Below, one piece after another: positions 24,118 to 45,414 of a stretch of 64,000 nucleotides of DNA; the stretch's first letter is position 1; the number at the start of each line of letters is the position of its first letter. The position numbers and the translations under genes were made by a program. The notes under the pieces are model-generated. The model did no database searches, was not told the DNA's origin, and worked only from the letters and a program-made list of their open reading frames with translations. This DNA is from Spirosoma profusum (GTDB lineage Bacteria > Bacteroidota > Bacteroidia > Cytophagales > Spirosomataceae), in the NCBI RefSeq assembly GCF_014699005.1, contig NZ_JACWZY010000004.1, positions 248,001 through 312,000 of the forward strand. The letters are read 5' to 3'.

Positions 24118-24315
24118 TTAATTACCGCTCAATCTCAACCGACTGCTGGCACCAAACAGCAACCGACCACCAGCTCCGTAGCTCACGCGCAAGGCCTGCC
24201 CCTGATAACTGGCTGGTAAACTTACCGCATGATTCAGTGTCACCACATCGGTAATGAGCGGCACCCGGCCGCAGGACCATACACTGGCATCATTCCAGTC
24301 CCCGGTTTTTAACGT
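24118..24315 (-). other. Shared C-terminal module, copy in giant 1
   Basis: The last roughly 65 residues (starting at TLKTGDWND) align without gaps to the end of the RHS protein (45213-45414), about 31 of 64 positions identical by hand count. Invariant positions include GxWND, WSCGR, PASYxG, AL, AGG and the terminal RL. It is a compact WxxG-type sandwich at the exact C-terminus. Confidence 0.75.
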
Positions 24316-27300
24316 AAACATACTTCCGCAACCGCCTGGATTCACGACACTCAGGGGCAGAATCGTTGATACGGACCCACCTGTCGGATCGGTAGCGATT
24401 ACCGTCACACTATAAAAGGCGCTGGCTGAAGCCGAAGCCATACCTCTAATGGTAGCCGGAGCGACAAAACTGAGTCCAGCAGGCAACCCAATCACCGACA
24501 GGGAGAGACTACCCGGCGTCTCAGCATCGGTGAAGGTGTTGGCCGGAATCGTATAACTAAACGCCTGACCTATCGTAGCTGACTGGGGCGGAATGGCGTT
24601 TTCTACCCTCGGATTTCCATTGGCGCAGTTAGCCAGCCAGTTATAACTAAACGTAGCTTCTCCCGGTGTCCCCAGCTGAGTGGCTTTGAAGACAATCACC
24701 GGATTGTCGGTAAATAGATTCAACTGATACGGCTCATTGATGGTGATCGTCGTGGCCTCATTGAGCACCGAAAGGCTGATAGGTTGCCCATTGGTGCCAC
24801 TGTAGCTGACTATAAAGTTGATCCGCCGTTCAAAATAACTGATATGATTACAGTCCAGCATGGTTACTCCAGTGATGCCAAAGCCAAAAGGCCGCACGTT
24901 CAGCGAAAAGCTGGTGCTAGCGGATAAACCACCCGGATCAGTGACCACCACCGTTACGTTAAAGGGAGAGCCTATCGTCGTCGAGGGGGTACCAGTGATG
25001 GTGTTGGGAGCGACAAAACTCAATCCAGCGGGTAGACCAACCACTGACAGCGTGAGGCTGTTGGGCGTTTCGGCATCAGTGAACGTAGCTGAGGGAATCG
25101 TGTAGCTGAAAGACGTTCCCACCGTGGCGAATTGAGGGGGAATGGCATTGACCAAATAGGGTGCACAGTTCTGATACGTAACGCTGACACTGGCCGAAGC
25201 CGTACAGCCGTTACTAGCCGTCAGCGTCACCGAGTAGGGTCCCGCCGACGTAGCATTGATAGCTTGGGTAGTAGCTCCGTTGTTCCAGCGATACGTCCCA
25301 CTACCCACCGCGCTCAGACTCACCGAAGTGGTGGTACAACTCAATATAGCCGAGCTGGGTGTAATGCTCACCGTGGGTGCCGAGGTATCCTGGAGAACCT
25401 GCACCGACGTAGTGGCGGTACACCCGTTTATCCCTGTCAGCGTCACCGAATAGGGTCCTACTGACGTAGCACTGACGACCGACGTAGTAGCCCCCGTACT
25501 CCATCGATACGTTCCTGTACCTACCGCACTCAGACTTACTGAGGAGGTAGTACAACTTAACGTAGCACTGGCAGGATTAACGCTCACCATCGGCAGAGAG
25601 TTATCCTGAAAAATCTGCACGGAGGCCGTAGCTGTGCAGCCGTTGATTGAGGTTAGGATCACCGAGTAAGTACCCGACGACGTAGCGCTGATGATAGGCG
25701 ACGTAGCACCCGTGTTCCAGCGATACGTACCACTGCCCACCGCGCTCAGACTCACCGCCGGACTGCTACAAGTAAACGTAGCACCGGTCGGCGTTCCGAT
25801 TGAGGGATTGATACTCACGGTGGGTACTGCGTTATCTTGACTTACCTGAATCGACGTAGTGGCGGTACACCCGTTAGCACCTGTTACCGTAACGGAATAA
25901 GGTCCCGCCGACGTAGCACTAATGGCCGACGTAGTGGCTCCTGTACTCCACCGATACGTTCCTGCACCCACTACCGACAAACTCACGGTTGGGCTAGCAC
26001 AAGTTAACGTAACACCGGCAGGTGTTCCGGTGCCTGGGATAATGCTCACCGTAGGAACGCTGCTGTCCTGATAAATCGATAGACTCGTGGCACTCATACA
26101 GCCTGACGCGTTCACACTCACCGAATACACACCACTCGCATTCACCAACGCCGTACCCGAACTCGCATCCTGACTTACTACGCTCGGCCCGCCAAAGCTA
26201 TAACTTGTACCTCCCATTGCCGTCAGTGTCAGCGAGGTTTGGGCGCAGGTCAGCGTTCCTCCAAAATTGGCCGACAATATAGCTGTGGGTGGAGTGCTCA
26301 CCGTTACGTTGGTGACAGCCGTAACCGGCTGCCCCTGGCTGCTCACCGTTAACGTAAAGCTCTGATTGCCGGAGCCAGCCGCCGTCAGGTTCTGGCTAAA
26401 ACCTGAATTAGACGTAGTACCGGTGGTGCTGACGGTCGGCGTTCCGGTACTGCCGTTGGTGAGGGTGTAGGAGTAATTACCCGTTACGTTGCCTACAGTG
26501 GCCGTGAAGCTGATTACACTCCCTACACAAACCGTACTGGTGCTGGCCGCGAAGTTCGTGATGATGGGCCGGTTGTCGACAATCGTTAGCACATACGAAA
26601 CACCTGTTCCCGAACAGCCATTGGCATCAGTCGCTTGTACCGTAATAGAGAAACTACCGCTCTGGGTAGGCGTACCCGACAATACACCTGTGGGTGATAA
26701 ATCCAACCCTGTAAGTAACGTACCACTGACAATACTGAAACTATAAGGACCCGCGCCCCCTGTTGCCGTAAAGGTCTGGCTGAAAGGTGTATTCAGTATT
26801 CCGTTGGTGACCACCGGACTGCTTACCGTTATCAGAGCGGTGGCACTGGTGATGGTAGTCGTGGCGCTGGCCGAGCAACCGTTGCTGGTGGAGACGGTCA
26901 ACGAATAGGTACCAGCGGCATTCACAAGAGCGGTCTCACTGCTGGGGCTAGATGTCAGAATGCCGGGACCACTAAACCTATACGATGTACCGGGAGCGCC
27001 GGTCGTTCCACTAACGGAGAGGACAGCGGTGGGGCTAGCGCAGGTGAGTAGGGTGTTACTGGCCATCATCGTTACCGTCGACGAGCTATTTACCGTCAGG
27101 CTAAATGCAGTGCTTGTCAAACTGAAACAATTATCACTACTAACCACCGAATAACTGCCTGTGTCTGTGGTCTGCACATTGGTTAGCGTCAGGCTGGCGG
27201 TCGTTGCCGAGGCAATGCCCGTTAAGGCAGTACCGTTCCTGTACCATTGATACGTAGAGGCAACCCCCGTCACACTCACACTGACCACCACTGTACTTCC

Positions 27301-30300
27301 CGCGCACACGACCGAGCCTGCCACCGGCTGTTGGACAATAGCCAGCGTTTCCGACTGATACTCAACGGCTCCCATATCCACCCGACCACCTACGATACGT
27401 GCATTACCCGCCAGATCGGTTGGAGGGAGAGCCGTTTGGGAGTAAGGCCCCATAGCGGAAGTGAGGCTGGCTGGGTTTCCCGCGTTAATGGCCGGTGAGC
27501 ATGGATTCAGGGCTACACTTGCGGTTGACGCAAAGGGTGATGTGGCGGTTGTCAGGTTGGTAGGGTCACTAGTATACCCCGTCACGCTGTTGTCGAAAAG
27601 GCTGTAGGTGGCTTTAGTCGTAGCGCCATTTTCGTTGAAAAGGGTGTTGCTGCCGCCGTTGTCGAACAGCACGCAGTTGGTCAGGGTGATGCTGGATTGG
27701 TTGGTGGCAATGGCTCCACCCTGTGGCGCCGTATTATTCTGGAAGCTACAGTTTAGTAATAGCGGATTGCTATTGCTGTCTCCATAAAAAATCCCTATAG
27801 CCCCACCGCTAACCGAGGCTGTGTTTCTTTGGAAAACGCAATTAATCAGCATCGAGTTACTGCTGGCGTTCACCAGAGCTCCGCCTTGAGAAGCCGTATT
27901 GTCCTGAAAAACACAGTTGATCACCACCGGGCTACTGGCAATATTGATCATGGCCCCGCCGAAGCTACCCGTGTTGCCCTGAAATAGACAATTAATCAGG
28001 GTAGGGCTACTATAATCATTGAGGATGCCACCACCAAAATTTTCTCCTTGATCGGCATTGCCGCCCGTAATAACAAAACCATCCAGCACAGCTGAGTTCT
28101 CGAGATACAAACCGAATGGGTTATAGATAACGTGATAGCTGTTGTCGGTGTTATCGCCCAACTTACCGATGTCGCCACTAAGAGTGGTACTGCTGGGTTG
28201 CGATGCCCCGCCGGGACCGTTAACGAGGCTGATTGGTGGCCGTTGGCTCAGGCTGGTTTCATTGCCTACAAAGCCTCCATAGATCGTCACCCCGTTCCGC
28301 ATTTTAAAACCGGCGTTGCGGTCGGTTGTGGAGGTGGGTTTATAAAGACCCTGTGCCACCCAGATTTCGGTTAGGCTCTGGGCACAGACACCGCCATAGG
28401 TAAGGGCCGTTTGCAGATCGGAGAAGGCATCATCCCATGACAGGCCCGTGCCTGCTCCCGTCGCGTTGGCTCGCACGTACAGGCGGTTGGGAGGGGGCAC
28501 CAACGTAACACTTGTTGTGGCCGTCGCCGTGCAACCATTGGGAGTGCTGACTGTCACGGTGAACGTTTGCACACCTGTCGGAAAACTACCTCCAGGTAAA
28601 ACAAACACCCCATTTGTATTGCTGGTACCGAGGAGGGTGTAGCTGGAACCGCCTGTCGCGGTCATTACTAAGTCCGACTGGTTGCAGGTTAGGGCCGTAT
28701 TGGCACGTAACGTCGCTGTGGGCGGGGTAGTGTTGCTCGTTACCAGCACCGTAAGCGAACTCTCACAACCCACCAAATTCGTGACAGTAACTGAGTACAC
28801 GCCTGCTACGTTGACCACTGCCATGCCGTTTGTTACGTCCTGACTAACAATTCCTGCTGACCCACCACCCGGCCCAGCAAAGGCATACTGGATACCGCCC
28901 GTTGCGACGAGTGTCAGACTGGTCTGCGCGCAGGTGAGTATGCTACCATTGGGGCTGATACTTAAAGTTGGTGTACTTTGATAAGCAGTTACACTTACGG
29001 AAGTCGTAGCTGTACAGCCGTTGGCGGAGGTAAGGGTTACCGAGTAGGTACCGGATGCACTCACACTTCGAATAGGGCTGATCGAGTTATCGTCCCAGCG
29101 CACACTACCAGTGCCGATGGCTGTCAGGCTCACCGTAGGATTGGCGCAACTTACTGTCGCACTGGACGGGCTAATGCTTACGATTGGAGCCCCCTGGTCA
29201 GCTGTGATTGAGACTGACGTAGTAGCTGTGCAGCCATTGGCTCCTGTCAGGGTCACTGAGTACGTACCGGCCGAGTTTACTGTGCGGATAGCGTTGGTCG
29301 AGTTGTCGTCCCAGCGCACACTTCCCTCACCGCTAACTGTCAGACTTACTGAAGGGCTAGCGCAAGTGAGTGTCGCAGATGAAGGACTGATGCTCCCAGC
29401 TGATGCACCCTGATCAGCCGTGACGGAGACTGACGTAGTAGCTGTGCAACCATTTGTCCCTGTCAGGGTTACCGAGTACGTACCGGCTTCACTCACACTT
29501 CGACTAGCGTTGGTCGAGTTGTCGTCCCAGCGAATCGCCCCTGCCCCAACGACCGTTAGACTCACCGATGGGTTGGCACAGGTAATCGTGGGGGCACTGG
29601 CACTGATACTTACCGAAGGTGGATTGACGTCCTGAGTAATGGTGACACTAGTCGTACTGAAACAGCCCGTTTCGGTATTGGTTACCGTTACTGAGTATAC
29701 CCCGGCTGCATTCACTACGGCTGTATTGCCTGTCTGGCCCACCACGCCCGTTCCACTAAACGTATACGTACTGCCACCTCCAGCAGTCAGCGTCAGACTC
29801 GTCTGGCTACAGGTCAGTGTACCTCCATTGCTGGCCGAGATCGTCGCTGTAGGCACAATGATATTCCGATCAATGATCAGATTTGTTGTACTGGAACAAC
29901 CCGAACTAATGGTCGTCACAGTCACCGAATACGTACCGGCGACATTCACTACCGCGCTGTTGCCACTTTGGCTCGCTACTCCAGGGCCACCGAATCTATA
30001 CTGATCTCCTCCACCCGCTGTCAGTATTAAACTGGTCTGTCCACAGGTTAACGTACCACCATTACTGGCGGATAACGTTGGGATTGGGAGTGGATTAACC
30101 GTTAACTCTGCTGTGGTGGTGACTGACTGGCCAGTACGGCTCACCGTTAGCGTGAAGGTTTGCGCGCCCAAGTCGCCAGCGATGATCGTCTGACTAAAGC
30201 TGGCATTACTGCTACTACCTGTGGTGGTCGAACTACCATTGGTGAGCGTATAGGTATAGCTACCCGTTACGTTGCCAAGCGTGGCGGTGAAAGTTACGGG

Positions 30301-33300
30301 GGCGCCTACACATATCGCACTGGAACTGGCTGAAAAATTAGACAGGGTGAGCGCTCGGACCAGTAGAATATAAGGTGAACTGGCCACTCCGATACACCCT
30401 TCGGCATCCTGAGCCTGTACGGTAATGGTGAAACTACCACTCTGAGTAGGGATGCCCGACAATACGCCCTCAGGGGATAAACTCAACCCCGTGGGCAACG
30501 TACCACTGACTAAGCTAAAACTATAGGGAGTAACTCCACCCGACGCAGTGAAACTCTGGCTAAAACTCTCGCCGAAGCTGGCTGTGGTCGTAGTTGGATT
30601 ACTCACCGTTATCAGAACGGTCGTGATGGTTGTAGTTGCACTGACTAAGCAGCCGTTGCTAGTGGTCGCAGTGACCGAATAAGTACCAGCCGCATTCACC
30701 AGCGCCGTTCCACTGTCGGGGCTTGAGGATAGAATACCGGGGCCAGCGAAGGTGTAGGAAGTTCCTCCAGTAGCTGTCAGGGTTGCCGTGAGTCTATTGC
30801 AGTTCAAGGCTGTTGTAGAAGCTGTAAGGCTGGCCTGGACGGTCTTATCCACCAAAATGCTTAGGCTCTGCGTACCCGTACATCCGTTTGCATCTGTCGC
30901 TGTTACGGAATACGTAGTCGTAACTGTTGGCGTTACGTTAATCGCCGATGTAGTAACTCCGGTGCTCCATCGATACGTAGCGCCACCACTGGCCGTGAGT
31001 GTGGCTGAGGGTGTAGCACAGGAGGAATTGACATTACTGAGCGTGATAGTAACTATCGGTACGTTGCCCGTCAGCGAGAAACTTTGGGTGAGCTGTCCAC
31101 CTACTGATAATTGCAGTTGACCAGTGGCAAAACCAGCACTGGTTGGGTTGTAGCGCACATAAAGTGCCTGTCTGGGCAGGTTGCCGTTAGGGGTAGCGAG
31201 CGTCAGGCTGTGGCCAAAGCCGGTGGTGGCATTCAACGATACTTCAAACTGATCGGATACACTCACTGATACGGGCTCCGATAGGCAAGGACCTCCCCAC
31301 ACCAAAATGGACTGAGCAGTCGAAGGAACTCCTACTGCTCCGCAGAATGTGGCCAATTTTCCGGGTGTCTGCTCATAGTGGTCAAACGTACCATTGCTTT
31401 TCCCAATGATGAGGTCTTTCCAGCCATCATTGTCTAGATCGGTTACGGTCGGAGCCGAATACGTACTTGTAACAGATATCGAAGGCAATTGGTTGAAATT
31501 GCGGGACCCTGGACCTAGTTGTTCATACCGCGCCAGCGATGCATTGCTACCGCCGATCAGCATTTCCAGTAACCCATTATTATCTAAGTCAGTAATGGTC
31601 GGGGTCGATGAAAACCCTACATCAACGCCAGCAAAGGATGGCAGACCGTCACTGACAAATCGGGCGACAGTAGGGCCTGCCTGCTCGTAGCGCAGCAATC
31701 TGCCGTCGGTTTTACCCAGGATCAGTTCGATCAAGCCATCCCCGTCAAAGTCGGCAAATGCCGGAGCAGGCTCGTCAGTAGTAATAAGTTCATTCAGAAA
31801 ACCACCCCCCGTATTCCCTGGAGCCGTGAACGACAATGACCGAGGGGCCGTCTGGATGTAGTGCCCTAACCGTGGAATACCCCGCGGAAGTGGATCGTAG
31901 CTACCTACCACTAAGTCGAATCGCCCATCGTGGTCAATATCAGTCAGCGTGGGTCGCACGCTAAGGGACGTTCGTACCGAGTCAAAGTGGGTCGTAACCA
32001 ACGAAAAGGAGAGGGCATTTGTCGCAGTTTGTCGGTAGTGATGCATGTACCCCCCAAACGGAATATTACCCACCGCCAGCATGTCTAATAATCCATCATT
32101 ATCCAGATCGCCGAAGGTCGCCCCAGCGTTTACGCCTTCCTGTATGCCACTGAAGTTGGTACTGATTAATGAGAAATTGCCTGGATTAGAGGTAGCTATG
32201 AGTTGCGGATTCTGCACAGTTACGGTAGCGCCCGTAGCCGTTACACTGGTTCCACAGTCGGTTACTTCAAACACATAATAGCCCGTTTGCGCAGGTAGTA
32301 CGTTGGTCAGCGTCAAGGTTGCACTGGATGGTGAGGCTGGCAGTGCAACTCCGTTCTGATACCAGCGATACTGCATATTGTCTGTGCCCGTAACACTAAC
32401 TGAAAGCGAAACCGTATTTCCCAAACAGGTCAGCAGTTTGCCGGTGGTTTGTGCGGTAATGTCGGGGGGCAGGTTCGCCCGTACTCTGGCCGAAGCAACA
32501 CCGTTGAAGGCACCTATTACACAGCTTGCCGACACAACGGTATTGGTGTTGGGCGATGGTGTGTAATTGATCGTGCGAACGTTGGTGGCTCCGGTGCTCC
32601 AGTTGACTGTGCCATTCGCACACCCCAGTGCCGACAGAGAAACCGCTCCTCCGCATATGGAGCTTAGTTCGGGCGTGATCGTGAGCGAAGGTGCGTTGCC
32701 TACTACGGGCACCGTTCGCACCAGGCCACCCGACGAAAAGGTCAGATTACCAGAAGCATTCCCGCCTGTAGCCGATACGAAACGAACAAACACCTGATCG
32801 TTCAATACTCGCCCGTTGGTTGCTGGTAGAACCACGCTGCCACCAAAGCCAGTGGTAGCACTGAGCGATACCTGAAATTGAGCTGGGGCCGCTACGGTCA
32901 AATCACCCGGCAGGCAACCATCTCCTGCCCATACTTGTACTGACTGAACGGCTGACGGCGCGTTGGCTCCACCTACAAAGCTCAACGTACCGGGCCCCTG
33001 TTGCTCCATATGTAAAATCGTTCCTGTTCCACGCCCCCACAAAAAATCGAGCAAGCCGTCATCGTCGATATCGGTGAAAACGGGCACAGTGTTGCCTGGC
33101 GCTACACTCGTATTTAGAAAATTTGTCGTGATCTGCGAAAACGTAAGCGCGTTTGGAGTTGTTTGCCTGTATTGCGCTATCGTTCCATTGCCGCGTCCGA
33201 TCATCAAATCGAGCAAGCCGTCGCTATCAAAATCCGTGATCGTGGGCACCACTTGTCCTCCCGTTAAGGCAATACTGTTAAAGCTTGCGGTCACGAGTGT

Positions 33301-35034
33301 AAATAGTCGCGAATTGGCCGTATTCTGTTCGTAATGAGCAATGGTACCGGTTTGTGTACCGACCAGTAGATCGAGCAAGTTGTCGCCATCAAGGTCCGTT
33401 ACAAACGGGGCCGATCCGTTGCCTACATCGATATTGTTGAACGTATCAGTCACAAGCGTAAAGCTGGTCGACTGTGGGGCCGACTGCTGGTAGTGGCTGA
33501 TGCTACCTGCTGCTTTACCAACCAGTAAATCGAGCAGACCGTTTCCGTCCAGGTCGGTCATCGTCGGTATGGCATTACTGCCGACATTGATCCCGTTAAA
33601 ATTAGTCGCTACGAGTGTTACGGTGGAGGCATTGACAGTTGCTTGTCGATAGTGGGTAATAGTCCCGTTCTGCGTACCTATCAACATGTCTTTTCGTTCG
33701 TCGCCTTCCAAGTCAGTAAACAATGGAGCGGAGTTAGCCCCGGGATTGATGCCGCTAAAAGTAAGGTTAAGCGTAGAAAAGGAAAGTGGATCTGGCAAGA
33801 TGGTAAGGCCTGGGGATTGCCCTTGCAGGGGTAGAGCCAAAGTTGCCCCGGTGCCCGCCGAAAGGCTCATTACTCCCGTAACCGTACCGCTACGTGTTGG
33901 ATTAAACCGTACGTAAACAAGCCCACCGCTAACCGAACCATTCGACTGCCCCAGCACCAGACTACTACTGAACGTACCATTGGTACTCGTCGACAATTCG
34001 AATGACGCTGGCACCTGGATGGTTACGTCATTTGTCAGGCAACCTCCCCGCACCCATATCTGTTGCGTTGCACTCGGAGTTCCTGGCACTCCGCAAAATG
34101 GACTAAAGTCAGCCGGATTCTGTTCATATCGGGCAATAGTACCCCCATTTGTTCCAACTAACAGATCGAGAAGCCCATCATTGTCTAAGTCGGCTGTGGC
34201 AGGACCAGCTTCATCGCCAACATCATAGGCCGGAAACGTCCATATAGGGTAGTAATTACTCGTAGGAGCATCTTGGGAAGAAAGTGTCAACGTACCGTCT
34301 GCTTTGCCTATCAGCAAGTCCCGCAGGCCATCCCCGTTCAGATCGGTCACGTATGGTACCAGATGAGTACCATAATCAAAGGGTAGAATATTAAATCGCT
34401 CCAATGAAAACGAACCCGTGTTTGATCGGCCAAAACGGCTGATGTAGAAACTATCACTCCCAGTTAACATAAACACTAATGGGAGTCCGCCGAAATACGG
34501 AAGCACCTGCTCAATAGTTATTGACGAATTAGTTGTGGCCTGGTATACAGTAGTCGATATAAACGTATCGGTCTGTAAAACGAACGTATTGCTGCTATAT
34601 TCGTAGTGGTAAAAATTACCGCTGGCTTTGCCAATAAGCAGGTCTGCATTACCGTCGAGGTCAATATCTGCAAGCGTTGGAGCCGCATTGTCGCCCACAT
34701 CAATTCCCTGAAAATTGGCAGCGATCACCTGATACGTCCCTCCGCCTACCTGGGCTTGTTCCAGGTACGTGATTGTTCCGTCGGACTTCCCAATCAGTAC
34801 GTCCAGTTTTCCATTTTTATTAAAATCACCCGTAGTGAGTCTGGTACGGGTACCACTACTGATGCTGCCAAACTGGTTCGTGACTAAATGAAAATCGTTG
34901 GTATTGGAAATGGCTCCCAAACTTGGCTGGCATGTTTGTGCAGTTACGAACGTAGCGTGTCCGGCTAGCCGAACAAATAAAAGCAACAGAGCAAGTCGGA
35001 TAAGGGTAGACGGTTGTATCATACGGAGAAGCAT
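24118..35034 (-). CDS. Giant secreted mosaic protein 1: FG-GAP, beta-helix and Ig-like repeats
   Basis: A 3638-residue extracellular protein with a signal peptide (1-33). Approximate domains: three blocks of FG-GAP/VCBS propeller-type repeats (30-315, 411-690, 948-1235), each followed by a beta-sandwich starting VWGG/VRGG-C; PKD/Ig-like repeats (1330-2170) with an He_PIG-type Ig (1475-1545); a right-handed beta-helix of polymorphic-outer-membrane-protein style (2180-2555, opening LYVRANATGAGTGLSWDDAF); more Ig-like repeats and another He_PIG (2560-3290); two cadherin-like IPPQ..IP domains (3291-3565); and a C-terminal module (about 3570-3638) shared with the RHS protein. No enzyme domain was recognised. 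A surface, adhesive or filament role is inferred. No type IX sorting domain is recognisable. Confidence 0.9.
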   Translation of the reverse strand: MLLRMIQPSTLIRLALLLLFVRLAGHATFVTAQTCQPSLGAISNTNDFHLVTNQFGSISSGTRTRLTTGDFNKNGKLDVLIGKSDGTITYLEQAQVGGGTYQVIAANFQGIDVGDNAAPTLADIDLDGNADLLIGKASGNFYHYEYSSNTFVLQTDTFISTTVYQATTNSSITIEQVLPYFGGLPLVFMLTGSDSFYISRFGRSNTGSFSLERFNILPFDYGTHLVPYVTDLNGDGLRDLLIGKADGTLTLSSQDAPTSNYYPIWTFPAYDVGDEAGPATADLDNDGLLDLLVGTNGGTIARYEQNPADFSPFCGVPGTPSATQQIWVRGGCLTNDVTIQVPASFELSTSTNGTFSSSLVLGQSNGSVSGGLVYVRFNPTRSGTVTGVMSLSAGTGATLALPLQGQSPGLTILPDPLSFSTLNLTFSGINPGANSAPLFTDLEGDERKDMLIGTQNGTITHYRQATVNASTVTLVATNFNGINVGSNAIPTMTDLDGNGLLDLLVGKAAGSISHYQQSAPQSTSFTLVTDTFNNIDVGNGSAPFVTDLDGDNLLDLLVGTQTGTIAHYEQNTANSRLFTLVTASFNSIALTGGQVVPTITDFDSDGLLDLMIGRGNGTIAQYRQTTPNALTFSQITTNFLNTSVAPGNTVPVFTDIDDDGLLDFLWGRGTGTILHMEQQGPGTLSFVGGANAPSAVQSVQVWAGDGCLPGDLTVAAPAQFQVSLSATTGFGGSVVLPATNGRVLNDQVFVRFVSATGGNASGNLTFSSGGLVRTVPVVGNAPSLTITPELSSICGGAVSLSALGCANGTVNWSTGATNVRTINYTPSPNTNTVVSASCVIGAFNGVASARVRANLPPDITAQTTGKLLTCLGNTVSLSVSVTGTDNMQYRWYQNGVALPASPSSATLTLTNVLPAQTGYYVFEVTDCGTSVTATGATVTVQNPQLIATSNPGNFSLISTNFSGIQEGVNAGATFGDLDNDGLLDMLAVGNIPFGGYMHHYRQTATNALSFSLVTTHFDSVRTSLSVRPTLTDIDHDGRFDLVVGSYDPLPRGIPRLGHYIQTAPRSLSFTAPGNTGGGFLNELITTDEPAPAFADFDGDGLIELILGKTDGRLLRYEQAGPTVARFVSDGLPSFAGVDVGFSSTPTITDLDNNGLLEMLIGGSNASLARYEQLGPGSRNFNQLPSISVTSTYSAPTVTDLDNDGWKDLIIGKSNGTFDHYEQTPGKLATFCGAVGVPSTAQSILVWGGPCLSEPVSVSVSDQFEVSLNATTGFGHSLTLATPNGNLPRQALYVRYNPTSAGFATGQLQLSVGGQLTQSFSLTGNVPIVTITLSNVNSSCATPSATLTASGGATYRWSTGVTTSAINVTPTVTTTYSVTATDANGCTGTQSLSILVDKTVQASLTASTTALNCNRLTATLTATGGTSYTFAGPGILSSSPDSGTALVNAAGTYSVTATTSNGCLVSATTTITTVLITVSNPTTTTASFGESFSQSFTASGGVTPYSFSLVSGTLPTGLSLSPEGVLSGIPTQSGSFTITVQAQDAEGCIGVASSPYILLVRALTLSNFSASSSAICVGAPVTFTATLGNVTGSYTYTLTNGSSTTTGSSSNASFSQTIIAGDLGAQTFTLTVSRTGQSVTTTAELTVNPLPIPTLSASNGGTLTCGQTSLILTAGGGDQYRFGGPGVASQSGNSAVVNVAGTYSVTVTTISSGCSSTTNLIIDRNIIVPTATISASNGGTLTCSQTSLTLTAGGGSTYTFSGTGVVGQTGNTAVVNAAGVYSVTVTNTETGCFSTTSVTITQDVNPPSVSISASAPTITCANPSVSLTVVGAGAIRWDDNSTNASRSVSEAGTYSVTLTGTNGCTATTSVSVTADQGASAGSISPSSATLTCASPSVSLTVSGEGSVRWDDNSTNAIRTVNSAGTYSVTLTGANGCTATTSVSITADQGAPIVSISPSSATVSCANPTVSLTAIGTGSVRWDDNSISPIRSVSASGTYSVTLTSANGCTATTSVSVTAYQSTPTLSISPNGSILTCAQTSLTLVATGGIQYAFAGPGGGSAGIVSQDVTNGMAVVNVAGVYSVTVTNLVGCESSLTVLVTSNTTPPTATLRANTALTCNQSDLVMTATGGSSYTLLGTSNTNGVFVLPGGSFPTGVQTFTVTVSTPNGCTATATTSVTLVPPPNRLYVRANATGAGTGLSWDDAFSDLQTALTYGGVCAQSLTEIWVAQGLYKPTSTTDRNAGFKMRNGVTIYGGFVGNETSLSQRPPISLVNGPGGASQPSSTTLSGDIGKLGDNTDNSYHVIYNPFGLYLENSAVLDGFVITGGNADQGENFGGGILNDYSSPTLINCLFQGNTGSFGGAMINIASSPVVINCVFQDNTASQGGALVNASSNSMLINCVFQRNTASVSGGAIGIFYGDSNSNPLLLNCSFQNNTAPQGGAIATNQSSITLTNCVLFDNGGSNTLFNENGATTKATYSLFDNSVTGYTSDPTNLTTATSPFASTASVALNPCSPAINAGNPASLTSAMGPYSQTALPPTDLAGNARIVGGRVDMGAVEYQSETLAIVQQPVAGSVVCAGSTVVVSVSVTGVASTYQWYRNGTALTGIASATTASLTLTNVQTTDTGSYSVVSSDNCFSLTSTAFSLTVNSSSTVTMMASNTLLTCASPTAVLSVSGTTGAPGTSYRFSGPGILTSSPSSETALVNAAGTYSLTVSTSNGCSASATTTITSATALITVSSPVVTNGILNTPFSQTFTATGGAGPYSFSIVSGTLLTGLDLSPTGVLSGTPTQSGSFSITVQATDANGCSGTGVSYVLTIVDNRPIITNFAASTSTVCVGSVISFTATVGNVTGNYSYTLTNGSTGTPTVSTTGTTSNSGFSQNLTAAGSGNQSFTLTVSSQGQPVTAVTNVTVSTPPTAILSANFGGTLTCAQTSLTLTAMGGTSYSFGGPSVVSQDASSGTALVNASGVYSVSVNASGCMSATSLSIYQDSSVPTVSIIPGTGTPAGVTLTCASPTVSLSVVGAGTYRWSTGATTSAISATSAGPYSVTVTGANGCTATTSIQVSQDNAVPTVSINPSIGTPTGATFTCSSPAVSLSAVGSGTYRWNTGATSPIISATSSGTYSVILTSINGCTATASVQIFQDNSLPMVSVNPASATLSCTTSSVSLSAVGTGTYRWSTGATTSVVSATSVGPYSVTLTGINGCTATTSVQVLQDTSAPTVSITPSSAILSCTTTSVSLSAVGSGTYRWNNGATTQAINATSAGPYSVTLTASNGCTASASVSVTYQNCAPYLVNAIPPQFATVGTSFSYTIPSATFTDAETPNSLTLSVVGLPAGLSFVAPNTITGTPSTTIGSPFNVTVVVTDPGGLSASTSFSLNVRPFGFGITGVTMLDCNHISYFERRINFIVSYSGTNGQPISLSVLNEATTITINEPYQLNLFTDNPVIVFKATQLGTPGEATFSYNWLANCANGNPRVENAIPPQSATIGQAFSYTIPANTFTDAETPGSLSLSVIGLPAGLSFVAPATIRGMASASASAFYSVTVIATDPTGGSVSTILPLSVVNPGGCGSMFTLKTGDWNDASVWSCGRVPLITDVVTLNHAVSLPASYQGQALRVSYGAGGRLLFGASSRLRLSGN
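25170..26060 (-). repeat. Four tandem 216-bp Ig-like repeats in giant 1
   Basis: The landmark AGACT/AAACT word recurs at 25316, 25532, 25748 and 25979, with spacings 216, 216 and 231; the longest spacing reflects five extra codons. Each unit encodes about 72 residues ending in an NGCTAT(T/A)S strand with one conserved Cys pair. It is the same unit as in the RHS protein. Confidence 0.85.
28960..29640 (-). repeat. Three tandem 216-bp Ig-like repeats in giant 1
   Basis: Landmarks at 29126, 29342 and 29558 give exact 216-bp spacing. This subfamily carries RWDDNS in place of RWSTGA at the turn, which sets it apart from the four-copy array nearer the C-terminus. Confidence 0.85.
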
Positions 35035-35277: not shown

Positions 35278-35316
35278 ACTATAACGGATGTTCCAAATAC
35301 TATAACGGATGTTCCA
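35278..35316. repeat. Tandem 18-bp direct repeat, 21-bp period
   Basis: ACTATAACGGATGTTCCA occurs at 35278-35295 and again at 35299-35316, separated by AAT. The 21-bp period is two helical turns, so both copies face the same side of DNA, as with paired activator sites. It lies about 245 bp upstream of giant 1. Confidence 0.6.
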
Positions 35317-35356
35317 GAACAGAAAAAAGTAGGTAGATTATGCCTGAGATGAATAG

Positions 35357-35702: not shown

Positions 35703-35784
35703 GTTTGTTTTATCATTTTAGCAACCATCTCTTTTTCTGGGAAAGATTTCCTAACTATGTGCCCATACTAACAGGCTATGAGCC

Positions 35785-36405: not shown

Positions 36406-36488
36406 CAAGTACCTTTTAAGGTTTTTTTCAAGAAATAGGGTATCTGATTGACCGCCGTTGCATCTCTGAATAAAGGCATAGCGGCACC

Positions 36489-37574: not shown

Positions 37575-37580
37575 AAAGTA

Positions 37581-37611
37581 GAGTCGGCGATGGTACCAGC
37601 ATCACCGACTC
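37581..37611 (+). terminator. Hairpin between fecR and susC
   Basis: GAGTCGG (37581-37587) pairs with CCGACTC (37605-37611), and GATG with CATC inside, giving an 11-bp stem with one mismatch. It begins 6 bp after the FecR stop. No strong T run follows, so it may be a partial terminator or processing site separating regulator from structural genes. Confidence 0.55.
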
Positions 37612-37698
37612 GGAAAGTGCCCGCCTTGACGACTACTTCTCCGGGTGGAGATGGCGGGATTGTTTTGCCAGTTGCGAACTAACTAAACAGTCAAAAGT

Positions 37699-40600
37699 AT
37701 GAAAAAAAGAATACCCCGACACTCTCTTATCTATCAAATTATGCGTGTTGGTTTCCTCCAAATCATGCTCATTACGGTCCTTGCCAGTATGGCTTATGCT
37801 GGCCCCGTTACCGCACAGGAACTGCTGAATCGCAAGGTATCGGTTCAGGCCAATGAGCAGGAAATAAAACTGGTGCTACGTCAGCTTGAAAAACAGGCCG
37901 ATATCCGGTTTATGTATAGTCCACAAGTGATACCATCCAGCCGGAAGGTATCACTGAACGTAACGAATCAGCCGCTGGCGGAGGTTTTGGCGATCTTACT
38001 TAAACCGATTCACGTAGTATATGAAGTGACAGGCAAACAGATTTTGCTCGATAAAGCACCGTCAACGGGGCAGATTGAGCCGCTGGCCGCTCCCAAAATA
38101 ACCGAAGATCTGACGGTACGTACCATTGCGGGGCAGGTTACCGATGCTGAAAACAAACAGCCTATTCCGGGGGTAACAGTGATTGTAAAAGGTACGTCGA
38201 AAGGTACGGCTACGGACGTAAGCGGGCATTATTCGCTACGTATCGACGATGCCGACCAAACGCTGGTTTTCAGCTTTGTCGGTTACGAATCGCAGGACGT
38301 AACGATCGGGAATCAGTCTCAGGTGGCCGTTTCGCTCAAACCCGACGTAAAGGCGCTGAGTGAAGTCGTTGTTGTGGGATACGGTACCAAGAAAAAAACG
38401 TCGGTAACGGCTGCGGTTGCTACGTTGGAAGGAAACCAGTTGGTAAAATCACCCATTGCCAACGTCAGCAACGGACTCTCGGGACGTATCGCCGGTGTTA
38501 CGTCGAAGCAGTCGAGCGGAGAACCGGGTAAGGATGGCGACGACATTAAAATACGGGGTATCGGTACCATCGGCAACTCGAATCCACTGGTGGTAGTGGA
38601 TGGTATTCAGCGGAGTCTGAGCCAGTTGAACAGTCAGGAAATCGAAACCATTACCGTGCTGAAAGATGCGGCAGCGGTTGCTCCCTACGGTCTGGCTGGT
38701 GCAAACGGCGTTATTCTGGTGACGACCAAACGGGGCAAAGAAGGAGCTATGTCCCTGACATACAACGGCTGGGTTGGTATGCAGCGACCGACGCAGTATC
38801 CGAATTATCTCGATTCCTATGGCTATGCGAAACTGCTTAATGAAGCCAATAAAAATGTGGGCGTAGCACCGACGTACACCGACGAGCAGCTTCAGAAATT
38901 TAAAGATGGTAGCGACCCCAACCATTACCCCAACACCGACTGGGTTCGGGAAGTACTGAGTTTCAACGCGCCCATCACGAATCATAACCTTTCGCTGTCG
39001 GGTGGCTCACAAAAAGTGCGTTTTTTTACCTCGCTGGGGTATATGTACCAGGAAGGTGTTGTCCGCAACATCAACATGAACCGGTACAATCTGGCCGTCA
39101 ATGTCGACGCCGATGCGACGGCAACCACTACCGTATCGCTGGATATCAAAGGAACGCTTCAGAAAAATACGGAACCAGCTGGCTTTAATGGTACGTCTAT
39201 TTTTACCGACGTAACAAAAAACGCACCCATTCTGCCGCTACGTTACGACAACGGATTACCGGGCACTAATACGTTGCCGATGATTTATGAAAGCGGCTAT
39301 AACCGCACGAACAGCGATATATTGTACTCGCAGATCACGGTTCGCCAGCAGCTTCCATTCATTCCCGGACTGGCGCTGAAAGGAGTAGCTGCTTATGACC
39401 GGTTCAACGATTTTAACAAACGCTGGACCCTGCCCATCACTTATTATTTGCTAAACGCCAAGGATGAATTCACTCCACTGAAGGGCGGCCCCGCTACACC
39501 GACGTTATCGGAGAGTTATGAACAACGGCAAATCCTAACCCTGCAAGGTTATATTACGTACGCTCATAGTTTCGGAAAACATACTATTGATGCGCTTGGT
39601 GTACTCGAAAAACGTACTGGCAATTCGCTGTCGTTTGCGGCCTCACGCCTGAGCTACGCCGTGCCGATGGACGAACTCTCGTTGGGTAGTACTGACAAAA
39701 CGACCTTCGATAACAGTGGCGGTTCGTCCAGCAACGCACAAACGGGTCTGGTGTATCGGGTGGGTTATACCTACGCTGACAAGTATCTGCTGGAACTGGG
39801 TGGGCGCTATGACGGTCATTATTATTTCGCGCCGGGAAAGCGATTCGAGTTTTTCCCGGCGGTGTCGGTCGGTTGGCGGTTGTCTGAAGAGCCGTTTTTG
39901 CGTAATAATGCGAACTGGATCGATAACCTGAAAGTGCGGGCGTCTTACGGTAAATCGGGAAATCTGGCCGGTAATCCCTTTCAGTTCCTGAGTTCGTATG
40001 GTCTGAACAACAGCTACGTATTCGGTGGAACGAGTCCGTATCAGGTGCAGGGTGTATTTGAACGTAGCGAACCCAATCGAAATATTACCTGGGAAACGGC
40101 CTTCAAAACCGATATCGGCCTGGAAGGTTCGTTATGGCACGGAAAACTCGGCTTCGAACTGGATTATTTCTGGGAAAATCGGTCGAATATGCTCCTGCCT
40201 CCGTCAGCGTCTGTACCACTTGAGTACGGCATTGGTATTTCGCAGGAAAACGCGGGTATCATGAAAAATCACGGTGTGGACATCAACCTGACCACTGCAC
40301 ACCGTTTGGGGAAAGACCTGCGCCTAAATGTGGGCCTTAACTTCTCCTACGCTCAGAACAAACTGATTCAGACGTTCGAGAGTCCAGCCACTTACGACAA
40401 CCCCAACCGACGCCGAACCGGCCGACCCTGGAATACGCAGTTTGGCTACCGGGCCATTGGCTATTTCCAGTCGGCGGAAGAGGTTAAAAGTTCACCGACT
40501 CAATTCGGTACGTTGCTCCCAGGCGACATTAAATACGAGGACGTGAACGGCGACGGCAAGATTGATTTGAACGATGAGGTTGTGATCGGGAATCCCTCAT

Positions 40601-41073
40601 TCCCAGCTATTATTTTCGGATTGACACCCTCGATTAGCTGGAAAGGATTCGACGTGAACATGCTCTGGCAAGGAGCAACCAAGGTGAGCTTTTACCTCGG
40701 CGACGATGCTGCCTTCCCATTCTTCAACGGCGCGAAAGTACAGGACATTCACCTGAATTACTGGACCCCTGAAAATCGGGATGCGCCCAACCCACGTCTG
40801 ACGCCTTCGCCAACGACCAACAATTCCCAGATTTCATCATTCTGGCTGCGCGATGCCAGTTACGTGCGGCTGAAAACCCTCGAAGTAGGCTACACGCTGC
40901 CTAAGACCTTACTCAACAAAGCGAAAATCGGCTCAGTACGCATTTTCGCATCCGGTCAGAACCTGCTGACATTAGCGAAGATCAAGAATTTTGACCCCGA
41001 AGTCAGTAACCTGAAAGGCCGCTATTATTTCCAGCAGCGCGTCCTTACTGCCGGACTTAACATAGGATTTTAA
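37699..41073 (+). CDS. SusC-like TonB-dependent outer-membrane transporter with STN domain
   Basis: A 1124-residue importer. It has a signal peptide (1-40, ending PVTAQ), a secretin/TonB short N-terminal (STN) domain at about 45-115 (the signalling domain that talks to FecR), a carboxypeptidase-like beta-sandwich at about 140-212 (IAGQVTDAENKQPIPGVTVIVKG is the usual opening), the SusC motif LSEVVVVGYGTKKK near 223, a plug at about 235-345 and a 22-strand barrel ending VLTAGLNIGF. It pairs with the SusD-like lipoprotein 23 bp downstream, forming the pedal-bin import complex for glycans or other large ligands. The STN domain and upstream FecIR imply substrate-induced expression. Confidence 0.96.
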   Translation: MKKRIPRHSLIYQIMRVGFLQIMLITVLASMAYAGPVTAQELLNRKVSVQANEQEIKLVLRQLEKQADIRFMYSPQVIPSSRKVSLNVTNQPLAEVLAILLKPIHVVYEVTGKQILLDKAPSTGQIEPLAAPKITEDLTVRTIAGQVTDAENKQPIPGVTVIVKGTSKGTATDVSGHYSLRIDDADQTLVFSFVGYESQDVTIGNQSQVAVSLKPDVKALSEVVVVGYGTKKKTSVTAAVATLEGNQLVKSPIANVSNGLSGRIAGVTSKQSSGEPGKDGDDIKIRGIGTIGNSNPLVVVDGIQRSLSQLNSQEIETITVLKDAAAVAPYGLAGANGVILVTTKRGKEGAMSLTYNGWVGMQRPTQYPNYLDSYGYAKLLNEANKNVGVAPTYTDEQLQKFKDGSDPNHYPNTDWVREVLSFNAPITNHNLSLSGGSQKVRFFTSLGYMYQEGVVRNINMNRYNLAVNVDADATATTTVSLDIKGTLQKNTEPAGFNGTSIFTDVTKNAPILPLRYDNGLPGTNTLPMIYESGYNRTNSDILYSQITVRQQLPFIPGLALKGVAAYDRFNDFNKRWTLPITYYLLNAKDEFTPLKGGPATPTLSESYEQRQILTLQGYITYAHSFGKHTIDALGVLEKRTGNSLSFAASRLSYAVPMDELSLGSTDKTTFDNSGGSSSNAQTGLVYRVGYTYADKYLLELGGRYDGHYYFAPGKRFEFFPAVSVGWRLSEEPFLRNNANWIDNLKVRASYGKSGNLAGNPFQFLSSYGLNNSYVFGGTSPYQVQGVFERSEPNRNITWETAFKTDIGLEGSLWHGKLGFELDYFWENRSNMLLPPSASVPLEYGIGISQENAGIMKNHGVDINLTTAHRLGKDLRLNVGLNFSYAQNKLIQTFESPATYDNPNRRRTGRPWNTQFGYRAIGYFQSAEEVKSSPTQFGTLLPGDIKYEDVNGDGKIDLNDEVVIGNPSFPAIIFGLTPSISWKGFDVNMLWQGATKVSFYLGDDAAFPFFNGAKVQDIHLNYWTPENRDAPNPRLTPSPTTNNSQISSFWLRDASYVRLKTLEVGYTLPKTLLNKAKIGSVRIFASGQNLLTLAKIKNFDPEVSNLKGRYYFQQRVLTAGLNIGF

Positions 41074-41096
41074 TACCTCATTATCAGGAGTTACTC

Positions 41097-42734
41097 ATGA
41101 AAAAGATACTTATTCTCATACTGCTTACTACCTTCTTTACGGCCTGCTCTGAAGCTGTACTGGACGTAGCACCCACCGACCAGTTGACGGAAGAAACCAC
41201 CTGGGCCAGCCCGCAAACCGCCGGTTTGTTTCTGAACGATATTTACAACAGCCTCAATGCCGGTCCCTGGTCGGCGGTGTATCAGAACCTGCCCACCGAA
41301 CTAAGTGTTGATCCGCTGGATAATTTCTCGGATAACGCAACCTATGGACCGCTCGGTGGGGCGCTTTCCGCTTCCTTATTCGATACGGGTTCATATGGCC
41401 CATCCAATGATATTTTCAAGCCGAACTGGGCCAAAATGTACGCCAATATTCGCAAATGTAATCTGTTCATAAGCCGGATTACGGCCTCTACGTTCGACGA
41501 CGCGACGAAAAAATCGCTGGTGGCGCAGGCGCGTTTTTTACGGGCTTATTTCTACAAATCGCTGATTGATTTATACGGGGGAGTGCCGCTGATCACCAAA
41601 GTGCTGGACCGAAATAGCGGTGAAGACATTCAGTATCCCCGCAATAGCTATGCTGAATGCGTCGCGTTCATTCAGAAAGAATGTACCGAAGCTACCATTG
41701 ATTTGCCTGCGAAAATTGCCGATAAAAAAGACTTGGGCCGAGCCACAAAAGGAGCAGCTTTGGCGCTGAAAGGAGAGCTTGAATTATACGCCGGAAAATG
41801 GGCCGACGCCGTGGCGACTCATACTGAAATCATGCAATCGAAACAGTACGATCTATTCCCTGATTACGCTGGACTGTTTTATTCGCAGAATGAAAACAAT
41901 CAGGAAGTGCTGTTCGATATTCAGTTCGCGCCGATTGTTAAACAACGGAATATCAATCAGTACTGGGGTGTTGTCGAAGCCGCTTCCGGTGCGGGCTGGG
42001 GTGCTGTAGACCCAACGCAAAACCTGATCGATGACTATGAGTTTGCCGACGGCAAAACTTCCGCCGAAGGTTCTCCGCTGTACGACCCGCAGAATCCGTA
42101 CAAAAACCGGACGAAACGTTTCTACGCATCTATTATTTACGACGGCTCGATCTGGCGGGGCAAACCCGTTTATACCCGGTTGGGCATCGCTAATAATGCC
42201 AACCAGATCAACGTAGTGGGGAAAGCCGGTAATACCGGTCGGACGGGTTATTTTACCAAAAAATTACAGGACTCTACGTTCCAGTCGACGCCTACCAATC
42301 TGGATGGCACGAATGTCATCATTTTCCGCTACGCCGAAGTGCTGCTGAACTATGCCGAGGCTAAGAATGAACTGAGTGGCCCCGACCAAACCGTATACGA
42401 CGCTATCAACAAAGTTCGAAATCGAGCCGGTTTGCCCAATTTACCCACAGGATTGACTCAGGAGCAAATGCGCCAACGTATCAGACGGGAGCGCCGGGTC
42501 GAACTAGCATTTGAAGGAAAACGATTATTTGATCTGCTACGTTGGCGCATTGCCGAACAAGTGTTTAGCCAGCCCATCTACGGAATGAAAATTGAGGAAA
42601 AAGCGGGCAAGCTGGTCTATGAACGAGTGGAAGTTCGGAAGGTTAAATTCGTAGCCTCGAAGAATTACCTGATGCCGATTCCGCAGGACGTTATCGCTCA
42701 GAACCCCAAAATCACCCAAAATCCTGGTTACTAA
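41097..42734 (+). CDS. SusD/RagB-family nutrient-binding lipoprotein
   Basis: A 545-residue surface lipoprotein. The lipobox is FFTACSEAV (Cys near residue 17). The helical SusD fold shows TPR-like pairs such as AQARFLRAYFYKSLIDLYGGVPLI, and the conserved C-terminal block AEVLLNYAEAKNELSG with RRERRVELAFEGKRLFDLLRW. SusD proteins cap the SusC channel and bind the substrate outside the cell. The partner gene is directly upstream, and a phosphodiesterase and sulfatase follow in the same operon. Confidence 0.96.
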   Translation: MKKILILILLTTFFTACSEAVLDVAPTDQLTEETTWASPQTAGLFLNDIYNSLNAGPWSAVYQNLPTELSVDPLDNFSDNATYGPLGGALSASLFDTGSYGPSNDIFKPNWAKMYANIRKCNLFISRITASTFDDATKKSLVAQARFLRAYFYKSLIDLYGGVPLITKVLDRNSGEDIQYPRNSYAECVAFIQKECTEATIDLPAKIADKKDLGRATKGAALALKGELELYAGKWADAVATHTEIMQSKQYDLFPDYAGLFYSQNENNQEVLFDIQFAPIVKQRNINQYWGVVEAASGAGWGAVDPTQNLIDDYEFADGKTSAEGSPLYDPQNPYKNRTKRFYASIIYDGSIWRGKPVYTRLGIANNANQINVVGKAGNTGRTGYFTKKLQDSTFQSTPTNLDGTNVIIFRYAEVLLNYAEAKNELSGPDQTVYDAINKVRNRAGLPNLPTGLTQEQMRQRIRRERRVELAFEGKRLFDLLRWRIAEQVFSQPIYGMKIEEKAGKLVYERVEVRKVKFVASKNYLMPIPQDVIAQNPKITQNPGY

Positions 42735-42758
42735 TTTCTGATCCTAAATCCATTTCTT

Positions 42759-43715
42759 ATGAACGTATCGAATAGACAGGCTATGGGCATTTACCTGATT
42801 TTTAGTGTAGTAAGTCTCATTTCGCTGGCCGGATTTAACGTAGCACCGAAGCTCAATACCATTCAGATTAACAAGGGCAAAACGGTAAAAGATTTCTTCG
42901 CCTATTCACCCGACCGGCTGCCGTTTGTGAGCGCACACCGGGGCGGAGCCCGGAAAGGATTCCCGGAAAATTGCCTTGCTACGTTTGAGAATACGCTCGG
43001 GCAGGTGCATGCCATCCTGGAAATCGACCCGCATTATACCAAGGACAGCGCGATTGTGTTGATGCATGACCCGACGCTCAACCGAACGAGTGAAGGGCAG
43101 GGGAAAATCTCGGATTATACGCTCAAAGAATTACAAAATCTGAAGTTGAAAGATACCGAAGGCAACGTAACGCCCTACCACATGCCAACGCTCGACGAAG
43201 CGCTGGAGTGGGCAAAAGGCAAAACCATTCTGGTGCTCGATATGAAAGACGTACCGATGGAAGCCCGTGTCCGGAAAATTGAAGAACACCACGCCGAAGC
43301 CAGTGCGATTGTAATGGCATACAGCCATGCCGATGCGCAAAAGTGCTACCAGTTGAACAAAAATATTCTGATGGAAGTCATGCTCGGTACGATGGATAAA
43401 GTGCGTGAATTCGACAAAACGGGTGTGCCCTGGCAGAACGTAGTGGTTTTTGTGAGTCATACATTGGGCAAAGAGCGGGAAATTTTCGATGAGATTCACA
43501 AACGGGGCGCCATGTGCATGATTGGCAGTTCGCGGAATTACGACATCCGGTATGCCAAAGGGGAAATAAAGTCCGATGAGTTGCTGAAAGGCTACACCGG
43601 GATCATTAACGATGGCGCTGATATCATTGAAGCCGACCTCGCCATCGAAGCCGGAACGGCGTTGAAACCGCTTCAGCAGGTACGTTCGTCATCAAAAGCC
43701 TTGTATTTTCACTGA
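42759..43715 (+). CDS. Glycerophosphodiester phosphodiesterase family protein
   Basis: A 318-residue exported TIM-barrel phosphodiesterase. The signal or anchor is at residues 9-26. Catalytic landmarks are SAHRGG (first His), ENCLATFENT, the metal-site acidic residues in LEIDPHYTKDSAIVLMHDPTLNRT (including the second catalytic His) and LDMKD. The family splits glycerophosphodiesters, but members in Sus-type loci may act on teichoic-acid-like or phosphodiester-bearing glycans (inference). The stop is 24 bp from the SusD stop on one side and only one base before the sulfatase ATG on the other, so translation of the two is probably coupled. Confidence 0.93.
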   Translation: MNVSNRQAMGIYLIFSVVSLISLAGFNVAPKLNTIQINKGKTVKDFFAYSPDRLPFVSAHRGGARKGFPENCLATFENTLGQVHAILEIDPHYTKDSAIVLMHDPTLNRTSEGQGKISDYTLKELQNLKLKDTEGNVTPYHMPTLDEALEWAKGKTILVLDMKDVPMEARVRKIEEHHAEASAIVMAYSHADAQKCYQLNKNILMEVMLGTMDKVREFDKTGVPWQNVVVFVSHTLGKEREIFDEIHKRGAMCMIGSSRNYDIRYAKGEIKSDELLKGYTGIINDGADIIEADLAIEAGTALKPLQQVRSSSKALYFH

Positions 43716-43716
43716 T

Positions 43717-45132
43717 ATGAAGCGATTGAAAAATGTTCTGGTAACGGTTACTGCTGCCACTATTCTGCTCCTTTTCGGATTGGCGTTACGTCCGATGGAG
43801 ACGACCAAAGCCAAGAAGCCGAATATCATCTTCATTCTGGCCGATGACTTAGGCTATGGTGATGTCGGGTTCAACGGACAAACGAAAATCAAAACGCCGA
43901 ATATCGATCAGTTGGCCCGCGAAGGCATGGTTTTTCGACAGCACTACTGCGGAACGGCCGTTTGTGGTCCATCGCGGGCTGCATTAATGACCGGCATTCA
44001 TACGGCGCATGCTACCGTCCGCGAATTATCGGAATGGGGTCTGAACGGTAAACCCGCCGACCTAACGCCAAGCGACGTAACGGTTGCTAAAGAGTTGAAA
44101 CGAGCCGGATATACAACCGGAATTATCGGCAAATGGGGACTTGACGAGGGCGGCACAACCGGCAATACGTTGACGCAGGGGTTCGATTATTTCTACGGAT
44201 TCAAAACCCATCGCGAAGCTCATCATTACTACCCGGAATATATCTGGAAAAACAAGGACAAAATTCCCCTACCCAATAACAATTGTGCCGAGAAGCGGGG
44301 TACGTACTCCAACGATACGTTCGCGGAGGAAGCCCAGACATTTATTCAGCAACACCGTAGTGAGCCTTTTTTTCTCTATTTGCCGTTTACACTGCCGCAT
44401 AATGAGCTGACCGTACCCGCCGACTCCAGACAGCCTTACGAAAACCTGGGTTGGCCCAAGCAACCCATGCAGGTCGCGCACTACCACCATGACCCCGACG
44501 GAAATCTGGCCTACGCGGGTATGGTTTCTCGACTGGATCGCTACGTTGGGCAACTCATGGCTGAGTTGATAAAGCAACATCTTGACGAGAACACGCTGGT
44601 AATTTTCAGCAGCGATAACGGCCCCGGTTACGACAAAGGTTTTTTTGATAGCAATGGTCCGTTTCGGGGTGGAAAGCTGCAACTGTACGAAGGTGGCATT
44701 CGTGCTCCTTTTGTCGCGCGTTGGTCAGGTACGATCAAACCCGGAACCGTTTCCGACCACGCCAGCGCTTTCTGGGATTTTCTGCCCACTGCCTGCGAAC
44801 TTGCTGGCGTTCAACCCTCGGCTAAAATTGATGGCATCTCCTATGTATCGGCACTGCTTGGGAAACCGAAATCGCAGAAAGAACACGATTATTTTTATTG
44901 GGAAATCAATGAGCGCGAAGGCCCGATTCAAGCCGTTCGGATGGGTCCGTGGAAAGGCATAAAACTGTACGAAAAGCCATTTGAGCTCTATAATCTTCAG
45001 GATGACATAGCCGAGAAAAACAACGTAGCAGATAAGCATCCTGATGTAGTGGCCAAAATCCGGACGATGATGACGCAAATCCGTACGGATAATCCCGAAT
45101 TTCCATTGACCAAACGTAAAGCTTTATATTAA
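43717..45132 (+). CDS. Arylsulfatase-type sulfatase
   Basis: A 471-residue secreted sulfatase with signal peptide 1-30. The metal-binding pair D43-D44 is in FILADDLGYGD; the formylglycine-forming signature is C83-G-P-S-R-A-A-L-M-T-G; IIGKWGLDEGG, PFFLYLPFTLPHNE and FSSDNGPGYDKGF supply the remaining active-site residues. The Cys-type signature needs a formylglycine-generating enzyme encoded elsewhere. Its start is one base after the phosphodiesterase stop. The genomic setting suggests removal of sulfate from a glycan taken up by the adjacent SusCD pair. Sulfatase subfamily cannot be assigned by eye. Confidence 0.95.
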   Translation: MKRLKNVLVTVTAATILLLFGLALRPMETTKAKKPNIIFILADDLGYGDVGFNGQTKIKTPNIDQLAREGMVFRQHYCGTAVCGPSRAALMTGIHTAHATVRELSEWGLNGKPADLTPSDVTVAKELKRAGYTTGIIGKWGLDEGGTTGNTLTQGFDYFYGFKTHREAHHYYPEYIWKNKDKIPLPNNNCAEKRGTYSNDTFAEEAQTFIQQHRSEPFFLYLPFTLPHNELTVPADSRQPYENLGWPKQPMQVAHYHHDPDGNLAYAGMVSRLDRYVGQLMAELIKQHLDENTLVIFSSDNGPGYDKGFFDSNGPFRGGKLQLYEGGIRAPFVARWSGTIKPGTVSDHASAFWDFLPTACELAGVQPSAKIDGISYVSALLGKPKSQKEHDYFYWEINEREGPIQAVRMGPWKGIKLYEKPFELYNLQDDIAEKNNVADKHPDVVAKIRTMMTQIRTDNPEFPLTKRKALY

Positions 45133-45136
45133 TACG

Positions 45137-45192
45137 ACGTAGTGGTGTCGGGTTTGAGAATCACACGGGCGCCCCCACCGACACCACTACGT
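45137..45192. terminator. Bidirectional hairpin between the sulfatase and RHS genes
   Basis: ACGTAGTGGTGTCGG (45137-45151) and CCGACACCACTACGT (45178-45192) are perfect 15-bp complements around a 26-base loop. They sit between convergent stops. The arms contain the ACGTAG word that is overrepresented across the window. Confidence 0.75.
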
Positions 45193-45212
45193 TCAGCTAA
45201 TTCAAATTGGTA

Positions 45213-45414
45213 TTAAGGGACTAATCGAATTTTACTTCCTGCCCCATAGATCACTTTCCCTCCAGCGCTGTATCGGATGATCAGTGCCGAACCCGTGTAA
45301 CTCGCCGGAACAGTTACAAGGTGTTGAATCACCGCTATATCACCTGCCACCGGGATGCGACCACAAGACCAGGTTGTGGGGTCATTCCAGTTTCCATTTT
45401 TAACGGTGTTCAGT
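45213..45414 (-). other. Shared C-terminal module, copy in the RHS protein
   Basis: The last 64 residues (starting TVKNGNWND) are the counterpart of the giant 1 tail. Differences are mostly conservative (GRVP/GRIP, SYGAGG/RYSAGG). Like the other copy it follows an Ig-like repeat or sandwich and ends at the stop codon. Confidence 0.75.

Follow-up and report, generated by a model that had tools for sequence, protein, structure and literature searches.

Two giant proteins with a common C-terminal module

The window analyzed here is a stretch of 64,000 nucleotides of Spirosoma profusum (G000:C44:248001-312000; the genome has 8.73 Mb in 81 contigs). It contains two very large genes on the minus strand, with the following features in window coordinates:

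24118..35034, minus strand: 3638-aa FG-GAP/Ig passenger protein (intact ORF, domain search)
24118..24315, minus strand: C-terminal module of the 3638-aa protein, including a 3-residue tail and the stop codon (own-genome match C44:272130-272315)
34936..35034, minus strand: signal-peptide-like start of the 3638-aa protein, 33 residues to ...TAQ (by sequence)
45213..50897, minus strand: 1894-aa RHS passenger protein (intact ORF, domain search)
45213..45419, minus strand: C-terminal module of the RHS protein and its stop codon (own-genome match C44:293216-293419; modelled)
50835..50897, minus strand: signal-peptide-like start of the RHS protein, 21 residues to ...AEAQ (by sequence)

A first-pass annotation of the window had noticed that both proteins end in the same module, with about half of the positions identical and no gaps, and this was confirmed: in a genome-wide search the module of one protein matched that of the other with an E value of 1.6e-20, and 31 of 62 residues are identical in an ungapped alignment. 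Chance likeness is ruled out by this E value and by 10,000 shuffles of the pair, in which the identities averaged 4.3 and never exceeded 14. The annotation was also right that neither protein carries a recognizable type IX sorting domain, since no match to TIGR04183 or TIGR04131 was found on either (NCBIfam, E ≤ 1), and Pfam gave no match to G8 (PF10162) or PF18962 on the two proteins.

The closest own-genome match of the RHS-protein module lies just beyond the window, in a 772-aa frame (L079, module at G000:C44:313179-313376), and is 83% identical to it. Within the window, 17 bases separate the start of the RHS gene from the end of a same-strand gene for a 3095-aa beta-helix/CARDB protein (50915-60202, minus strand). 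This protein has a signal-peptide-like start but lacks the module and, in Pfam and NCBIfam, any known tail.

Abundance and position in the genome

With the 68-residue module of the RHS protein as the query, the search of the S. profusum genome gave 112 matches at E ≤ 10; a module shared by two proteins, as first described, is thus true but much too few. We examined the best 104 of these matches (E ≤ 0.00233). The module ends 0 to 5 codons before the stop in 92 of them and at most 31 codons before it in 100; of the remaining four, three are in frames that extend beyond the analyzed stretch, and the fourth has another 115 residues after it. Ten copies sit in frames of fewer than 200 aa, and three contain a stop. 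In one of the ten short frames (L030, G000:C12:23681-23866) the module is nearly identical to another 4 kb away, as though tails moved as cassettes by copying or shuffling.

For the profile, 87 of the 104 copies were aligned, leaving out broken, internal, fragmentary, and some near-identical ones. It found 107 matches in the S. profusum genome at E ≤ 1e-5, compared with 0 to 19 in each of 35 other Spirosoma genomes (four had none), a strong expansion in the source species. Known type IX tails are less numerous in this genome, with 59 places above the cut-off for TIGR04183 (type A) and 12 for TIGR04131 (type B), two places (on C11 and C22) being counted under both models, so that the 104 examined module copies outnumber both types together.

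Sequence and fold of the module

The module spans 58 to 78 residues up to the stop, and in the 87-row alignment a G, two W, and a P are invariant and an H is nearly so. Modelling of the fold, one of the checks proposed at the outset, gave a confident all-beta AlphaFold model of the RHS-protein module with seven strands (pLDDT 96.6, pTM 0.81). Foldseek found no match to this model in the PDB at E ≤ 0.001, and the first of its four matches is Amnionless (TMq 0.63, prob 0.75, E 0.7). Sequence matches in Pfam were weak: the N-terminal part of Amnionless was matched by 24 of the 87 members (E ≤ 1, best 0.003), and G8 (PF10162), the alternative that the first-pass annotation had mentioned, was touched by eight (E ≤ 1, best 1.2e-4). 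A full-length G8 domain has about 120 residues, whereas the module is terminal and shorter.

The same 87 modules gave no match to PF18962 in Pfam and nothing relevant in NCBIfam, including TIGR04183 and TIGR04131. A sequence search of the PDB returned a weak match to residues 899-960 of RemA (E 0.17), but a coat protein scored better by chance (E 0.012); therefore, neither match counts alone.

A cysteine within the module tends to co-occur with one upstream of it (Fisher p 1.5e-4 in the own genome and 1.9e-4 in relatives). Among 97 own-genome copies, both were present in 68, only the upstream one in 1, only the module one in 20, and neither in 8; the corresponding figures for 92 copies from relatives were 68, 0, 18, and 6. 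Put differently, when the upstream cysteine is present, the module has its own in 136 of 137 cases, and when it is absent, the module cysteine is missing in 14 of 52 (own genome and relatives combined). The pairing is partial, and several of the module-only cases have a second cysteine (CxC). This pattern is consistent with a disulfide, which would place the module outside the cytoplasm.

Passengers and N-terminal starts

For 90 of the 104 copies, a scan of the region preceding the module (at most 480 residues, E ≤ 0.001) found 89 families, among them He_PIG (40), PKD (14), fn3 (10), NHL (4), FG-GAP_3 (4), and GEVED (4). DUF1501, alpha-amylase, subtilase, and CotH/LTD are passengers of single proteins. 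The passengers (Ig, fn3, NHL, FG-GAP, GEVED, DUF1501, amylase, subtilase, and CotH) are mutually unrelated.

By a home-made rule, a signal-peptide-like start was present in 77 of 94 module frames of at least 200 aa, in 48 of 55 type A frames, and in 11 of 26 other frames of the window, several of these 11 being plainly exported proteins. Of the 17 module frames missed by the rule, some have a signal that can be recognized by eye, and others are truncated or broken. Whether the module always occurs on signal-peptide proteins, a question raised with the first description, can thus be answered with usually, but not always. An earlier score, which 79 of 104 copies passed, was replaced because it was unspecific (18 of 28 window controls passed as well).

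Exchange of tails on DUF1501 proteins

A clean tail swap was found in one protein family, the DUF1501 proteins; other swaps rest on Ig repeats. Two DUF1501 proteins of the S. profusum genome, one of 503 aa ending in the module and one of 525 aa ending in a type A tail, are 58% identical over the entire passenger and diverge at the tails. A search of 36 Spirosoma genomes gave 100 DUF1501 matches, and tails were read for 70 of them and for the own type A paralogue. These 71 proteins, which include few of the most distant tail-less group, comprise 25 with the module, 26 with a type A tail, 20 with neither, and none with both. In their tree (a quick search, with a long-branch warning) the module group is one branch with an SH-aLRT of 99, and three tail changes suffice. 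Since tail-less relatives exist, the passenger fold needs no tail. BLAST relatives between module passengers (76 proteins) and type A passengers (29 proteins), and the accompanying coverage list, were not counted as evidence outside DUF1501, because Ig repeats inflate them.

In the DUF1501 group, the module has a divergent sequence and no Cys. Searching the family yielded 21 new orthologue loci (64-76% identity), of which 20, from eight other genera, end in the module; the remaining locus is truncated by the end of its contig. Orthologues from nine genera have the stop at the same position, which rules out truncated beta-helix genes as the origin of the terminal modules. Among the 25 Spirosoma orthologues, the median dN/dS was 0.146 for the module and 0.072 for the passenger (dS finite in 158 and 195 of 300 pairs, respectively), and the mean identity was 66% and 78%. 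The module of these proteins is under purifying selection, more loosely than the passenger.

The module-tailed DUF1501 protein of S. profusum (L076, G000:C44:217160-218665) starts with MKRRDFL..., which by eye is like a twin-arginine signal, so its tail may act on a folded protein.

Terminal in the family, internal outside

The module was terminal in 21 of 21 Spirosoma loci, then in 22 of 22 further ones (including L208 of G022), and in 16 of 17 loci from other genera of the family, the exception being L294. Among the named loci, which come from Spirosoma, Rudanella, Arsenicibacter, Arcicella, Cytophagales MAGs, and a record named Flavobacterium sp. SUN052, 40 of 43 modules lie at most 30 residues from the end (the exceptions are L156, L188, and L192). 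Outside the family, the module was internal in 6 of 6 loci at the order level and in 26 of 27 at the phylum level. These counts refer to the best matches in each genome, which lean to terminal copies because the profile was built from 87 copies of the own genome. With this profile, at least 86 of 150 genomes of the family sample (E ≤ 1e-5) and at least 33 of 395 of the phylum sample (E ≤ 1e-8) gave a match. The question of whether the module is always C-terminal therefore has two answers, nearly always inside the family and no outside it, and the matching of internal positions, named beforehand as evidence against a signal, is what we found outside the family.

The internal modules belong to secreted proteins of Bacteroidota and match the same profile with the pattern GxW....TW..G..P...D.V.I..GH.V (hereafter, G-W-W-P-H modules). 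Unlike the terminal module, they are internal or come right after the signal peptide (several outside the family directly follow an apparent one, by eye), with hundreds of residues after them. The family form is set apart from the G-W-W-P-H modules by WSCGR and the terminal RLRLG. Considering that the module is terminal inside the family and internal outside, the terminal form looks, from these sequences, like a new development within the family that derives from an older internal module. As related modules are internal elsewhere, the fold itself is no signal everywhere.

The sole terminal module found outside the family is that of L296 (G264, same class but another family), by independent origin or by transfer.

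Type IX machinery and known tails

The S. profusum genome encodes SprA, two PorV-family genes, and five PorP/SprF genes. Type B tails lie within 4 kb of three of these five, and no module copy among the 104 comes closer than 100 kb to any of them. The relevant passages of a 2023 review (PMC10202324) name tails of types A, B, and C only, type C being like the tail of ChiA (cl41395). According to the excerpt of PMC12618676, most tails fall into two families and those of type B require cognate shuttles; that of PMC10994853 describes type A tails bound in SprA with PorV, and that of PMC10821818 mentions PorP/SprF genes in the family. Among open-licence papers, we found none naming a tail like the module.

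The type A domain (TIGR04183, PF18962) resembles the module in being C-terminal, on signal-peptide proteins, with unrelated passengers, and it takes the same place on DUF1501 proteins. However, the two do not match in sequence, and the module has 62-68 residues compared with 70-100 in type A. Secretion by way of a type A domain depends on SprA/PorV. Type A domains are Ig-like seven-stranded beta sandwiches; the module model also has seven strands, but no solved type IX tail was among its four Foldseek matches. The type B domain (TIGR04131) is likewise C-terminal and found on large adhesin-like proteins, but it has no sequence match to the module and is usually linked to a PorP/SprF gene, which the module is not. 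The module was absent from the 59 TIGR04183 proteins, and a type A profile, built from the same 59 tails that it recovers, found no type A tail in the 104 module frames. This mutual exclusion is weak by itself, because two tails on one protein should be rare in any case, but with the lack of TIGR04183 and TIGR04131 matches, it excludes that the module is a known tail of type A or B.

A candidate sorting domain

A sorting domain is the best explanation for a terminal module that is widely shared, under selection, and found on one passenger in place of a known export tail. From sequence comparison, we favor this role for the module throughout Spirosoma and the family, and the tail swap on DUF1501 is the strongest evidence for it. 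The passenger would leave the cytoplasm through the signal at its N-terminus, which is Sec-like or, in the DUF1501 protein, similar to a twin-arginine signal. The small folded beta module at its C-terminus would be recognized at the outer membrane and direct it to the surface or outside, and may then be cleaved or stay as an anchor. The swap and the presence of the machinery suggest that it probably works through type IX secretion. The new export or surface-attachment signal envisaged in the first-pass annotation thus gains from the near-constant terminal position in the family, the signal-like starts, and the tail replacement, and loses from the internal position outside the family and the weak G8 resemblance.

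The related internal modules of secreted proteins, the all-beta fold, and the large adhesin-like passengers would also suit a module that keeps a protein, once exported, attached to an outer-membrane protein, LPS, or a polysaccharide and is no export signal at all. We consider this unlikely, although it comes first among the rivals: a module that only binds could sit anywhere in a protein, but 92 of 104 copies are terminal, the module stands in for a known sorting tail on DUF1501, and module proteins have no second, type A sorting tail. Next comes a structural cap that merely completes or stabilizes the fold of its passenger, for which the purifying selection on the DUF1501 module and its compact, confidently modelled fold would be expected; passengers of many unrelated folds and the 20 of 71 DUF1501 relatives without a tail make it improbable. 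Last, the dissimilarity to the type A and B models and the distance from every PorP/SprF gene could indicate a dedicated export route other than type IX secretion, but the exchange with a type A tail speaks for the type IX system, and we give such a route very little credence.

The candidate sorting domain is most simply explained as a derived, C-terminal version of an internal G8-like module of older origin; it would have arisen from the start of such a module, probably beta-helical and widespread in Bacteroidota. We tentatively propose, with somewhat less assurance than the sorting role itself, that the start of a G8-like beta-helix module became a further kind of type IX tail, unlike the Ig-like ones, and the commonest export tag of one species. 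The module would then show how an ordinary domain can give rise to a sorting signal. If it is a further tail type, about 100 secreted proteins of S. profusum escape annotation, a number above that of the type A and B tails combined. A tail with a different fold would make it possible to probe how a single translocon recognizes dissimilar signals. The DUF1501 proteins, with three tail states on one passenger, are a ready natural experiment. Two module proteins of S. profusum (L031 and L025, own copies 26 and 29) have additional internal copies of the module, weaker in match and located close to the N-terminus or in mid-protein, a possible trace of its ancestral place.
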